In this document: one piece after another, positions 43,360 to 47,117 of the stretch
Numbering within the stretch: position 1 is the first letter of the stretch
How the letters are laid out: each line of letters begins with the position of its first letter
DNA from: Paucidesulfovibrio longus DSM 6739
Lineage (GTDB): Bacteria; Desulfobacterota; Desulfovibrionia; Desulfovibrionales; Desulfovibrionaceae
Reading direction: 5' to 3'
Assembly: GCF_000420485.1 (NCBI RefSeq)
Contig: NZ_ATVA01000013.1
Span: 263,894-327,893 of the forward strand
DNA length: 64,000 nucleotides
Translations under genes and position numbers: made by a program
The notes under the pieces: model-generated
The model's database searches: none
Seen by the model: only the letters and a program-made list of their open reading frames with translations
Told to the model about the DNA's origin: nothing

Positions 43360-44211
43360 TCAGGGCTCTCTCAAAAAAACCGACGACGATTCGGGCAGCT
43401 TCGTACGGGCGGCCACCACCGGGCACTTGACCTTGAAGGCAAAATACACGTCCAGCCCGGAATCGGTCAATGACTCGTAGTTCCCCTGCCCCTTGGCGAG
43501 AACGATGTCCGCTTCCCGCAGACGCTTTCGAAAGTCGCCATCACAACGTTCCAAAACCGCGCCGGGAGTGTCGGCACCAGAAGAGAAAACCTCGCAAAGC
43601 TCGTCGAGCCCCACCTGGCGCGCATCGTCCAGTGTCGCGTCGTTGAGCACTGGCCGTCCTCTGACCGCATAGGACACCTGCGCGCCCAGCGCAAGCAACT
43701 CGCCCACCAGCAACCTGTCCAGCCCTATTTCCCCGGCATTGTCGCCGACGATGAGCACCTGCGCTCCCGGAACGGCGCGCTTGCGAAAGCTGGTGACGGC
43801 AGCGGGGTCCAGCGTCTCGTCCACGCGTTCCAGCTCGCCCTCCCAATCGAATCGGGTTTCCACGCCCGAATCCATGTAATTGCCGATGATTGATATTTCC
43901 AATGCCGTCGACAATGGATCGCGACTGCGCCGAAGCTTCTCGCCGAGTTCGGGCAACAACGTCAAGACCCTTGCGTTTGATCGTCGCTTTTCCTCGGCAA
44001 AACAATCATCCACCCCGGTGACGCGGCGCAGCAGGGCGTACAGACGCCCAGCCAGTGCGGGCGGCGGTTGGTCGAGATCGAACAGGGGGAGCAGTTCTGC
44101 CAGTTCCAGCAAGACACGTTTCTGAACGGCCGCATCCTCTGGGCGCGCCAGACGCGCTCCCGCGAGAGCCTGGCGAAAAAAACAGGGCAGACAATCCAAT
44201 TGCGTTTTCAT
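43360..44211 (-). CDS. DUF89 / ARMT1-like protein
   Basis: A 283-residue protein of the DUF89 metal-dependent phosphatase family. The N-terminus MKTQLDCLPCFFRQAL has the CxxC of the archaeal/bacterial branch. The metal-binding core is VLIVGDNAGEIGLDRLLVGE, followed by SYAVRGRPVLNDATLDDARQVG and ADIVLAKGQGNYESL. Family members dephosphorylate reactive sugar phosphates or other damaged metabolites. The ATG at 44211 has GGGGAG upstream. It is divergent from the sigma-54-driven ATPase genes. Confidence 0.85.
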   Translation of the reverse strand: MKTQLDCLPCFFRQALAGARLARPEDAAVQKRVLLELAELLPLFDLDQPPPALAGRLYALLRRVTGVDDCFAEEKRRSNARVLTLLPELGEKLRRSRDPLSTALEISIIGNYMDSGVETRFDWEGELERVDETLDPAAVTSFRKRAVPGAQVLIVGDNAGEIGLDRLLVGELLALGAQVSYAVRGRPVLNDATLDDARQVGLDELCEVFSSGADTPGAVLERCDGDFRKRLREADIVLAKGQGNYESLTDSGLDVYFAFKVKCPVVAARTKLPESSSVFLREP

Positions 44212-44289
44212 GCGGTTACTCCCCGCGAAGTATGGCCCGGCGCACCGGCTTTCGCAAGCGGTGAAACGGCGCATTATTCTCCCTCCTGT

Positions 44290-44324
44290 TTTTGCCGCAA
44301 CGGCGCAAAATACGCCTGGCAAAA
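44290..44324 (+). promoter_or_regulatory. candidate upstream activator site for the sigma-54 promoter
   Basis: TTTTGC (44290-44295) faces GCAAAA (44305-44310), and a further GGCAAAA half-site lies at 44318-44324. These inverted half-sites sit about 70-105 bp upstream of the predicted start, the usual place for an enhancer-binding protein. The site is inferred from symmetry and position only. Confidence 0.35.
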
Positions 44325-44368
44325 TCGTGTGGCGCGCCGGAATGCCCTCCAGCCGTGACTTTTACAAC

Positions 44369-44384
44369 TGGCACGCACGTTGCT
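44369..44384 (+). promoter_or_regulatory. sigma-54 (RpoN) promoter of the ferredoxin-ATPase pair
   Basis: TGGCACGCACGTTGCT matches the -24/-12 consensus TGGCACG-N4-TTGC(A/T) without mismatch (GG at 44370-44371, GC at 44382-44383, spacing 10). It lies 55 bp before the first ATG and predicts a start near 44395. Sigma-54 promoters need an enhancer-binding ATPase, so the two genes downstream are probably switched by a specific signal. Confidence 0.87.
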
Positions 44385-44439
44385 CCGGTAGCGGCAACGA
44401 AACGACGCGCATATTCCAGCGCGGCAAGCCGGGAGAAAC

Positions 44440-45303
44440 ATGAAAATCGCCATCGCCAGCGGCAAAGGCGGCACTGGCAAGACCACTGTCGCCGTCAACC
44501 TTGCCGCACATCTCAGTCGCAGGGGTATTCCCCTCAACTTCATCGATTGCGACGTGGAAGAGCCCAACGCCCGCTTTTTCCTTGGAATCGACATCGGGGA
44601 TACCCGTGTGGAACAGGTTCCCGTCCCCGTCATCGACGAGGATTCCTGCCTCGGTGAATCATGCAGAAAGTGCGTCGAGCTTTGCCGCTTCAAGGCGCTG
44701 ATCTGCATGGCGGGAACCGTCATGGCCTTCACCGAGCTCTGCCACGGTTGCGGATTATGCGAACTGGCCTGTCCGGCGGATGCGATCAAGGAAGGCACCC
44801 GCGACATCGGGGAAAGCGGCATCGGCCGTAAGGACGGTATCACATTTTTCCAGGGTCTGCTGCGCATCGGGGAAGCCATGTCCCCACCGCTGATCAAGGC
44901 CGTCAAAGCGCGCGCGGAAAACAGCGGCCTGACACTGCTCGATTGCCCCCCCGGGGCGTCCTGCCCCGTGGTCTGTTCCCTTCAGGACGTGGACTACGCG
45001 CTGCTCGTGGCCGAACCCACGCCTTTCGGCCTGCACGATCTGAATATCGCTGTCCAGCTCCTGCGCGAGCTGCATCTGCCCTTCGGGGTAGTGCTCAACC
45101 GGGCGGGCATGGGGGATGAGCGCGTCGAAAGATATCTCGAAAAGGAAGCGATCCCCCTTCTCGCGGCCATTCCCCACGAACGGGCAGCTGCCGAAGCCTA
45201 TTCCACGGGTGCGTTGCTCATCGACGGCGTTCCGGGCTTCGCCGACCGCTTCAGCGACCTCGTCGCCGCCATCGAACACCAAACGGGAAGGACATTGGGA
45301 TGA
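44440..45303 (+). CDS. MinD/Mrp-like P-loop ATPase with inserted 2x[4Fe-4S] ferredoxin domain (first of pair)
   Basis: A 287-residue protein. It has a deviant Walker A GKGGTGKTT (residues 8-16) and FIDCDVEEPN (residues 34-43) of the ParA/MinD family. A ferredoxin-like module is inserted with Cys 70, 75, 78, 82 (first spacing x4 rather than x2) and Cys 101, 104, 107, 111. The ATPase resumes with LLDCPPGASCPVVCSL. Such pairs occur in strict anaerobes, including the sigma-54-controlled orp genes of Desulfovibrio vulgaris (DVU2103-2105 region), where they associate with the molybdenum/copper 'orange protein'. It overlaps the next gene by 4 nt. Confidence 0.88.
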   Translation: MKIAIASGKGGTGKTTVAVNLAAHLSRRGIPLNFIDCDVEEPNARFFLGIDIGDTRVEQVPVPVIDEDSCLGESCRKCVELCRFKALICMAGTVMAFTELCHGCGLCELACPADAIKEGTRDIGESGIGRKDGITFFQGLLRIGEAMSPPLIKAVKARAENSGLTLLDCPPGASCPVVCSLQDVDYALLVAEPTPFGLHDLNIAVQLLRELHLPFGVVLNRAGMGDERVERYLEKEAIPLLAAIPHERAAAEAYSTGALLIDGVPGFADRFSDLVAAIEHQTGRTLG

Positions 45304-46160
45304 AACAGCTGGTCGTCATCAGCGGCAAAGGCGGAACCGGAAAGACAAGCGTGACAGCGGCCCTGGCCGGCCTGGGACCGGCTAAAGTCCTGGCGGACTG
45401 CGATGTGGACGCCGCCGACCTCCATCTCGTGCTCCAGCCCGAGATCAAGGAACGCTGGCCGTTCGTCAGCGGCGAGCAGCCGAGCATCGATCCGAATCTC
45501 TGCACCGAATGCGGGCTGTGCCGCACCCATTGCCGGTTCGGAGCCGTAAGCGAGGATTTCCGGATTCTTCCGGAACACTGCGAAGGCTGCGGGGTCTGCG
45601 ACTATGTCTGCCCGGTCGGGGCCGTATCCATGCGCCCGCGTGTCTGCGGAGAGCAATACCGCTCCGAGACCCGGCACGGCCCGATGGCCCACGCGGCGCT
45701 TGGGGTCGGCGAAGAGAATTCCGGGAAGCTGGTCACTTCGGTCCGGCGCGAAGCAAAAAGCCTGGCCGAAGATCGCGGGTTCGAACTGGTTCTCGTGGAC
45801 GGCTCGCCAGGCGTCGGGTGTCCCGTGATCGCTTCGCTTACGGATGCGGACCTCGCCATACTCGTGGCGGAACCAACTGTTTCGGCCGTCCACGACCTGA
45901 AAAGAGTCCACGACCTGACCAAGCATTTTCGTATGCCCGCGGCCCTTGTCGTCAACAAGTCCGGACTGAACCACGACATGGAGAGCGAGCTGCTGCGATA
46001 TTGCGAACTGGAAGGGATTCCCGTTTTGGGCAGCCTCCCCTACGACCCGATCTTCACGAAGGCCCAGATCGCCGGACAAAGCATCCTGGAGTTCGACCCG
46101 AACGGCCTGGGGGAAAACGTCCGGACCATCTGGTCCCGTCTGGAAACACTTCTGGCCTGA
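45300..46160 (+). CDS. MinD/Mrp-like P-loop ATPase with inserted 2x[4Fe-4S] ferredoxin domain (second of pair)
   Basis: A 286-residue paralogue of the gene before it. Deviant Walker A GKGGTGKTS (residues 9-17) and VLADCDVDAADLHL are followed by two regular clusters: Cys 68, 71, 74, 78 and Cys 94, 97, 100, 104. Switch-2 segment is LVDGSPGVGCPVIAS. The ATG overlaps the upstream stop (ATGA), so the two are made in equal amounts and likely form a heterodimer. They probably couple ATP hydrolysis to cluster handling or transfer; no orange-protein (NifX-like) gene is in the window. A strong terminator follows. Confidence 0.88.
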   Translation: MKQLVVISGKGGTGKTSVTAALAGLGPAKVLADCDVDAADLHLVLQPEIKERWPFVSGEQPSIDPNLCTECGLCRTHCRFGAVSEDFRILPEHCEGCGVCDYVCPVGAVSMRPRVCGEQYRSETRHGPMAHAALGVGEENSGKLVTSVRREAKSLAEDRGFELVLVDGSPGVGCPVIASLTDADLAILVAEPTVSAVHDLKRVHDLTKHFRMPAALVVNKSGLNHDMESELLRYCELEGIPVLGSLPYDPIFTKAQIAGQSILEFDPNGLGENVRTIWSRLETLLA

Positions 46161-46227
46161 GTCCCGGAAACTTCGTCGGATCCTCCCCGCGGCGCCATAC
46201 ACATGCGGCGCCGAGGCTGGAAACAGC

Positions 46228-46261
46228 AAAATGCCGCCTCCCGTGCGGGAGGCGGCATTTT
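46228..46261. terminator. bidirectional terminator between ATPase pair and lpxI operon
   Basis: A perfect 16-bp stem (46228-46243 with 46246-46261) starts with AAAA and ends with TTTT, so it serves both convergent transcripts. Confidence 0.92.
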
Positions 46262-46292
46262 GAATCCCAGACGATCAAGCGGGGAAAACAGA

Positions 46293-47117
46293 CTACTCTT
46301 TCCCGGTCAAGCCCACGATGCTGATGCCGGATCGGTTCGCTTCCGCAATGGTTTCCTCGCGATCGAAAAGCAGGCTCTTCCCCGCCTCGATGCCGAGACA
46401 GGTCGCCTTGCCCTCGCTCATGGTCCGGATGGTGTCCTTGCCCGCGCTGGGCAAATCAACGCGCTCCTCCTGGCCCGGCTTGAAGACCTTGACCACGACG
46501 CACTCCTCGCCGCCAAGTCGGCAACCGCGACGGATGGCCTCATCCGTTCCTTCCAGGGCTTCCACGGCGGCCACGATGCCCTCCCGAAGGATCAGGCACT
46601 GTCCGATGTCCAGACGGCCCAATTCCTTGGCCACGGTCCATCCCTGCCGCAGATCATCCCATTCGCGCTCAGTGGGCTGACGCCGCGTCAGCACGCCTTC
46701 GGGAGTCAGCAGGTCGGGAACGTGCACATGGGGCGGAACCACGCGCATCCCTTCGGATTCAAGCTCATGCGTGAGTGCGCCGAGCAGATTCGTGTCGCCC
46801 TTGTTCTTGTTCTTGAAGATGACCTTGAGCGCGCGCATGTCGAAATGCCGCACATCCATGATTCTGGGTTTGTCGATCGTGCCGGCCATGATGACCTGCT
46901 CGACCCCGTTCCGCTTGAAGAAGTCAAGAAGCTTGCCGAGCTTGCCGAGCTTCAGGGTTTCCACGACATCGGCATGAACGGCCACCTCCATGTTGCTGTG
47001 GCCCTCGAAACAGGCGACCACGAGCTTGTGTCCCGCCTTTTTCACGCCCTCAGCAACAAGCACGGGGAATTGGCGGCCCCCGGCGATCAGGCCGATCACG
47101 CACTTGGAATCCGGCAT
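46293..47117 (-). CDS. lpxI: UDP-2,3-diacylglucosamine pyrophosphatase LpxI
   Basis: A 274-residue DUF1009/LpxI enzyme that yields lipid X in the lipid A pathway, replacing the LpxH found in E. coli. Family segments: IGLIAGGRQFPVLVAEGVKKAG, then KLGKLGKLLDFFKRNGVEQV, MAGTIDKPRIMDV, and the long C-terminal part with QCLILREGIVAAVEALEGTD and DLPSAGKDTIRTM. The start at 47117 is 8 nt after lpxA. It is the last gene of the superoperon; lpxB is not here. Confidence 0.93.
   Translation of the reverse strand: MPDSKCVIGLIAGGRQFPVLVAEGVKKAGHKLVVACFEGHSNMEVAVHADVVETLKLGKLGKLLDFFKRNGVEQVIMAGTIDKPRIMDVRHFDMRALKVIFKNKNKGDTNLLGALTHELESEGMRVVPPHVHVPDLLTPEGVLTRRQPTEREWDDLRQGWTVAKELGRLDIGQCLILREGIVAAVEALEGTDEAIRRGCRLGGEECVVVKVFKPGQEERVDLPSAGKDTIRTMSEGKATCLGIEAGKSLLFDREETIAEANRSGISIVGLTGKE

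Follow-up and report, generated by a model that had tools for sequence, protein, structure and literature searches.

A pair of ferredoxin-containing P-loop ATPase genes in the window—the whole 64,000-nucleotide stretch of the Paucidesulfovibrio longus DSM 6739 genome (G000) analyzed here—is very probably controlled, together with two other orp loci, by sigma-54 and an enhancer-binding protein (EBP) encoded on another contig (C12); this is the explanation that best accounts for the sequence. The promoter, the operators, their spacing and conservation, and the gene content were read directly from the DNA. Control of orp genes by sigma-54 and a DVU2106-type activator is already known from Desulfovibrio vulgaris, and what is particular here is the dispersed three-locus arrangement and the two-operator promoter on the ATPase pair. 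The relevant features of the window are:

43360–44211, minus strand: divergent gene for a DUF89/ARMT1-like damage-control phosphatase (PF01937, E = 1.1e-59)
44267–44283, no strand: putative distal activator operator (UAS), CGGCGCATTATTCTCCC, PWM rank 1 of 63,984 positions
44301–44317, no strand: putative proximal activator operator (UAS), CGGCGCAAAATACGCCT, PWM rank 2 of 63,984 positions
44369–44384, plus strand: sigma-54 (–24/–12) promoter TGGCACGCACGTTGCT, an exact consensus match, unique in the window
44440–45303, plus strand: P-loop (MinD/ParA-like) ATPase of 287 aa with an inserted 2x[4Fe-4S] ferredoxin motif, Orp3/Orp4-like (Pfam CbiA, ParA, Fer4)
45300–46160, plus strand: second P-loop ATPase with a ferredoxin insert, 286 aa (Pfam CbiA, Fer4)
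46228–46261, no strand: perfect GC-rich hairpin AAAATGCCGCCTCCCG-TG-CGGGAGGCGGCATTTT with AAAA/TTTT flanks, read from the sequence

The sigma-54 promoter and the ATPase pair

The preliminary description had recognized a perfect, correctly spaced –24/–12 element ahead of the two ATPases, and this reading was borne out. In TGGCACGCACGTTGCT, the –24 GG (44370–44371) and the –12 GC (44382–44383) are arranged as GG-N10-GC, and the element faces the ORFs at 44440–45303 and 45300–46160. A gap of 55 bp separates it from the ATG (44440) of the first ATPase, placing the start of the site at –71; the transcription start is predicted near 44394–44397. The site also agrees with the Desulfovibrio-specific sigma-54 consensus, tGGcacg / tTGCt (PMC4641369). 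When both strands were scanned, the exact pattern TGGCACN5TTGCW occurred once in the window, where a first-order Markov model expects 0.067 matches per 64 kb, and 15 times across the 3.70-Mb genome, against about 3.9 expected under the same model. Matches with up to one mismatch were not enriched genome-wide (69 versus 96 in a reversed-pattern control); weight is therefore given to the exact match and to the comparative evidence alone.

The latter came from the two same-genus relatives, where TGGCACAAGCGTTGCT and TGGCACAGGCATTGCT lie at –71 and –73 from the ATG while the flanking DNA has diverged. This phylogenetic footprint is the strongest evidence that the promoter site is real, and we regard it as decisive. 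In addition, a sigma-54 site was present within the gap between the DUF89 gene and the ATPases in 15 of 15 species, and rpoN itself is a single-copy gene in this genome (one PF04552 match, E = 3.7e-60). Could the element nevertheless be a chance consensus match without function? One-mismatch sites are no commoner than their reversed control, and consensus alone is weak evidence; however, this site is intergenic, keeps its position despite diverged flanks, and is accompanied by paired operators at conserved spacing in 15 species, which makes a fortuitous match extremely improbable. An inverted repeat, GTTGC-N10-GCAAC (44379–44398), overlaps the –12 element; it is absent from the relatives, probably reflects chance, and was discarded.

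Whether sigma-54 is the sole route to expression is a separate matter. A promoter match is silent about other promoters and cannot exclude them, and the earlier statement that the two ATPases are produced only when an activator fires is unsupported. Fe–S assembly proteins are often constitutive, and a housekeeping promoter might provide basal transcription to which the activator merely adds induction. Such non-exclusive control is possible though rather unlikely, given a crude scan of 44150–46400 that returned no sigma-70-type site and the mere 228 bp between the ATPase pair and the divergent DUF89 gene.

The two ATPase ORFs share 4 bp (ATGA), and their products are 32% identical (47% positives, BLASTP). 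Each carries a Fer4 domain with eight spaced cysteines; in the product of 44440–45303, the P-loop and the eight cluster cysteines are invariant in 17 relatives. Orp3 and Orp4 are likewise two related proteins with two [4Fe-4S] ferredoxin motifs apiece (PMC6345978), and by this anatomy the window ATPases correspond to the ORange Protein complex members Orp3/Orp4 (DVU2103/DVU2104) of Desulfovibrio. Downstream of the pair, between convergent genes, the hairpin at 46228–46261 is a probable bidirectional terminator, although a simple terminator scan did not list it.

In several genera (L080 and L262–L271, including genus g8), the distance from the sigma-54 site to the first ATPase is 350–580 bp, so that the operon there may begin with at least one additional small gene; the L262 leader contains a stretch resembling orange protein.

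Paired candidate operators upstream of the promoter

Gibbs sampling on the DNA immediately downstream of the activator gene (190 bp each, 12 relatives from other genera) yielded a palindromic 17-bp motif; this training set contained no window sequence. Noise accounts for several of the 12 training sites, such as L111, whose activator does not adjoin the orp operon; it weakens the PWM yet cannot bias it towards the window. Scoring with the PWM covered the window and the individual loci, and the genome was searched by pattern. Its two top-ranking positions in the window, the putative operators listed above, begin 102 bp (distal) and 68 bp (proximal) upstream of the –24 box and are 34 bp apart. 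The motif associated with the C12 EBP thus occurs twice upstream of the window promoter. The center of the proximal operator falls at about –87 from the predicted start, in apparent agreement with the published DVU2106 site of D. vulgaris orp2 at –88 (PMC3897727). This operator overlaps a repeat, TTTTGC-N9-GCAAAA (44290–44310), that was first taken as the operator itself and was rejected, since the same-genus relatives do not retain it ahead of the pair.

The core of the proximal site, GGCGNAWWWTNCGCC, has two exact matches in the 3.70-Mb genome, one in the C12 activator/mrpORP promoter and one in the window, and allowing one mismatch adds the distal window site and an orange-protein gene promoter on contig C17; these counts are not independent evidence, because the pattern was written after seeing the sites. 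The shared palindrome and GGCAC-type sigma-54 sites are found at all three loci, on C12, C13 (the contig of the window) and C17.

The two-operator geometry recurred in 15 of 15 species whose split-off ATPase pair lies next to the DUF89 gene. Operators start either 66–68 and 99–102 bp or 78–81 and 110–113 bp upstream of the sigma-54 site, two spacing classes roughly one helical turn apart, and the members of a pair lie 31–34 bp from each other. One species (L266) had a low PWM score (8.8), and its operators, at –66/–99, were recognized by eye. A Fisher-combined p of ~1e-19 was obtained across species; as the species are related, the combined p-values are not independent, and we relied on the rank test and the conserved geometry instead. 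A contig search returned mostly distant anaerobes, which were left out of the promoter analysis.

The operators sit between two divergent genes, and all 15 species analyzed, from several genera, have the DUF89 gene (orthologues including L262–L272) as the divergent neighbor of their split ATPase pair. The operators might therefore serve the DUF89 gene instead of, or besides, the ATPases. We consider this quite unlikely: the sole exact sigma-54 match points at the ATPases, operator spacing is fixed relative to that match, and relatives in which the pair directly follows the activator have the same operators and promoter before the orp operon with no DUF89 gene there. We treat the gene at 43360–44211 as a neighbor and make no claim that it belongs to the regulon.

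A DVU2106-type activator and three dispersed orp loci

Genome-wide, 28 Sigma54_activat matches (26 of them strong) were found, and none lies on the contig of the window, in keeping with the earlier remark that the regulator is not encoded there. That description had also proposed searching for an EBP gene adjacent to orange-protein genes, and such a gene exists: G000:C12:176756–178099 encodes an EBP, with a two-domain Nitro_FeMo-Co gene next in line and mrpORP after that. The predicted protein combines PAS, AAA+ and Fis-type HTH domains, and its loop reads GAFTDA, the only such loop among the EBPs of this genome whose loops could be read. DVU2106 is listed with the same GAFTDA loop (PMC4641369), and loop, domains and orp neighborhood together argue that the C12 activator is a DVU2106-type EBP. 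The identity of the regulator, previously left open, can thus be proposed with a published D. vulgaris precedent.

The activator is 90% identical within the genus and has orthologues at 60–90% in most relatives. It was found in 15 of 15 further tested genomes carrying the ATPase pair. Among held-out activator loci, 13 of 14 were readable, and all 13 possessed the operator, a downstream sigma-54-like site, the GAFTDA loop and the PAS cysteines. The latter form a C56-x8-C65-x3-C69 motif (query numbering) that is invariant in 14 of 14 orthologues.

In this genome (L036:8757–10100; orthologues L107–L121 and L287–L299), the PAS C-x8-C-x3-C motif reads CWEVLRSGLCDGDC, and the activator has further invariant cysteines outside it, marking it as a candidate redox/metal sensor. 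By inference, the motif may be a lead towards metal, Fe–S or thiol sensing.

The product of the mrpORP gene at the C12 locus scores 529.5 bits against the MrpORP model (cut-off 450; NCBIfam NF041136). In D. vulgaris, MrpORP passes Fe–S clusters to Orp3-Orp4-Orp8 (PMC6345978). The window ATPases score 53 and 37 bits against the MrpORP model, which rules them out as MrpORP themselves; they are likely its clients. The third locus lies on C17:

L037:10095–10703 (G000:C17), minus strand: solo orange-protein-like gene (2wfb match, 1e-21)

Its 189-aa product matches D. gigas orange protein 2wfb over residues 3–107 (E = 1e-21); the gene has its own sigma-54 site, CGGCACGCCCGTTGCT, and a putative operator, GGGCGCATATCGCGCCC, and is conserved in G001 (L141). 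The ATPase pair is likewise unlinked to mrpORP or orange-protein genes in this genome; in four relatives (G004, G012, G018 and G021), the orthologues of the pair form one run with the activator, the Nitro_FeMo-Co genes and mrpORP.

With an operator common to the ATPase pair, the mrpORP operon and the orange-protein gene, the three dispersed loci are probably under a single activator. An activator dedicated to the pair alone, as first described, does not fit this distribution, which points to the activator of a small regulon instead. It could be argued that the promoter is real but responds to another EBP, of which the genome has roughly 26, and that a related Fis-type DNA-binding domain explains the operator likeness: there are 26 strong Sigma54_activat matches in the genome, and D. 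vulgaris EBPs sometimes have common binding motifs (PMC4641369). However, the operator was learnt beside the orp activator of other genera and marks orp loci almost exclusively here; moreover, pair and activator adjoin each other in many relatives, and none of the tested genomes with the pair lacked the activator. A different EBP is thus very unlikely.

Judging from orthology and operator conservation, the C12 activator would bind the palindromes at 44267–44283 and 44301–44317, two 17-bp sites that share one face of the DNA at a separation of about three helical turns. With the PAS domain in its active state, the GAFTDA-loop AAA+ domain would contact RNA polymerase–sigma-54 at 44369–44384 and the promoter would melt, yielding a transcript expected to start near 44395, cover both ATPases and end at the hairpin (46228–46261). 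Through the same operator and sigma-54 sites at the mrpORP (C12) and orange-protein (C17) loci, the activator would also turn on that operon and that gene. Binding, activation and co-expression of the three loci are what we infer from this arrangement; under a common activator, the parts of the complex would be made together despite gene dispersal.

More tentatively, the dispersed orp regulon might be a response to redox or Fe–S status, with the PAS domain and its C-x8-C-x3-C motif binding or sensing a metal/Fe–S cluster or thiol state, and with the operon having been broken up such that each piece kept or gained a two-operator sigma-54 promoter. If this were true, an Fe–S ATPase pair, an Fe–S carrier and an orange protein would be switched on together.

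The ORP complex occurs widely among strict anaerobes. An activator type combined with a concrete operator makes for a testable regulon of three loci. Furthermore, the regulatory link is kept across many species with a split operon, which supports a joint function of the ATPase pair, MrpORP and orange protein even where long distances separate their genes.

Comparison with known systems

The closest precedent is provided by the divergent orp1/orp2 operons of Desulfovibrio vulgaris Hildenborough, given as DVU2103–2105 and DVU2107–2109 (PMC3897727; Fievet et al. 2011, as cited in PMC4641369), which depend on sigma-54 RNA polymerase, DVU2106 and IHF (PMC3897727, PMC4641369). Both systems feature two ferredoxin-containing P-loop ATPases, a sigma-54 promoter, upstream palindromic operators at a similar distance (–88 there, about –87 here), a one-component GAFTDA activator, and mrpORP and orange-protein partners. 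IHF, required for D. vulgaris in the E. coli reconstitution, has no clear counterpart here: between the operators and the promoter, the best IHF match agreed at 6 of 9 consensus positions, and none was convincing. A search for the D. vulgaris orp promoter itself via its published IHF sites found none in 288 family genomes. The D. vulgaris operons lie on either side of the activator gene, whereas here the genes are spread over three contigs: one has the ATPase pair, one the activator and mrpORP, and one the orange-protein gene. Also unlike D. vulgaris, each of the three loci has its own sigma-54 site and operator, and the pair is preceded by two operators.

The individual proteins compare as follows. 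MrpORP (NF041136; PMC6345978) is encoded at C12 and differs from the window ATPases. Relative to D. gigas ORP (PDB 2wfb), the C17 product carries a C-terminal extension of about 80 residues, and its gene stands alone behind its own sigma-54 site. The window ATPases share the P-loop kind with MinD/ParA-type ATPases (PDB 1g3q, 1hyq), and their best structural matches are confined to the P-loop region; unlike those enzymes, they contain an inserted di-cluster ferredoxin motif.
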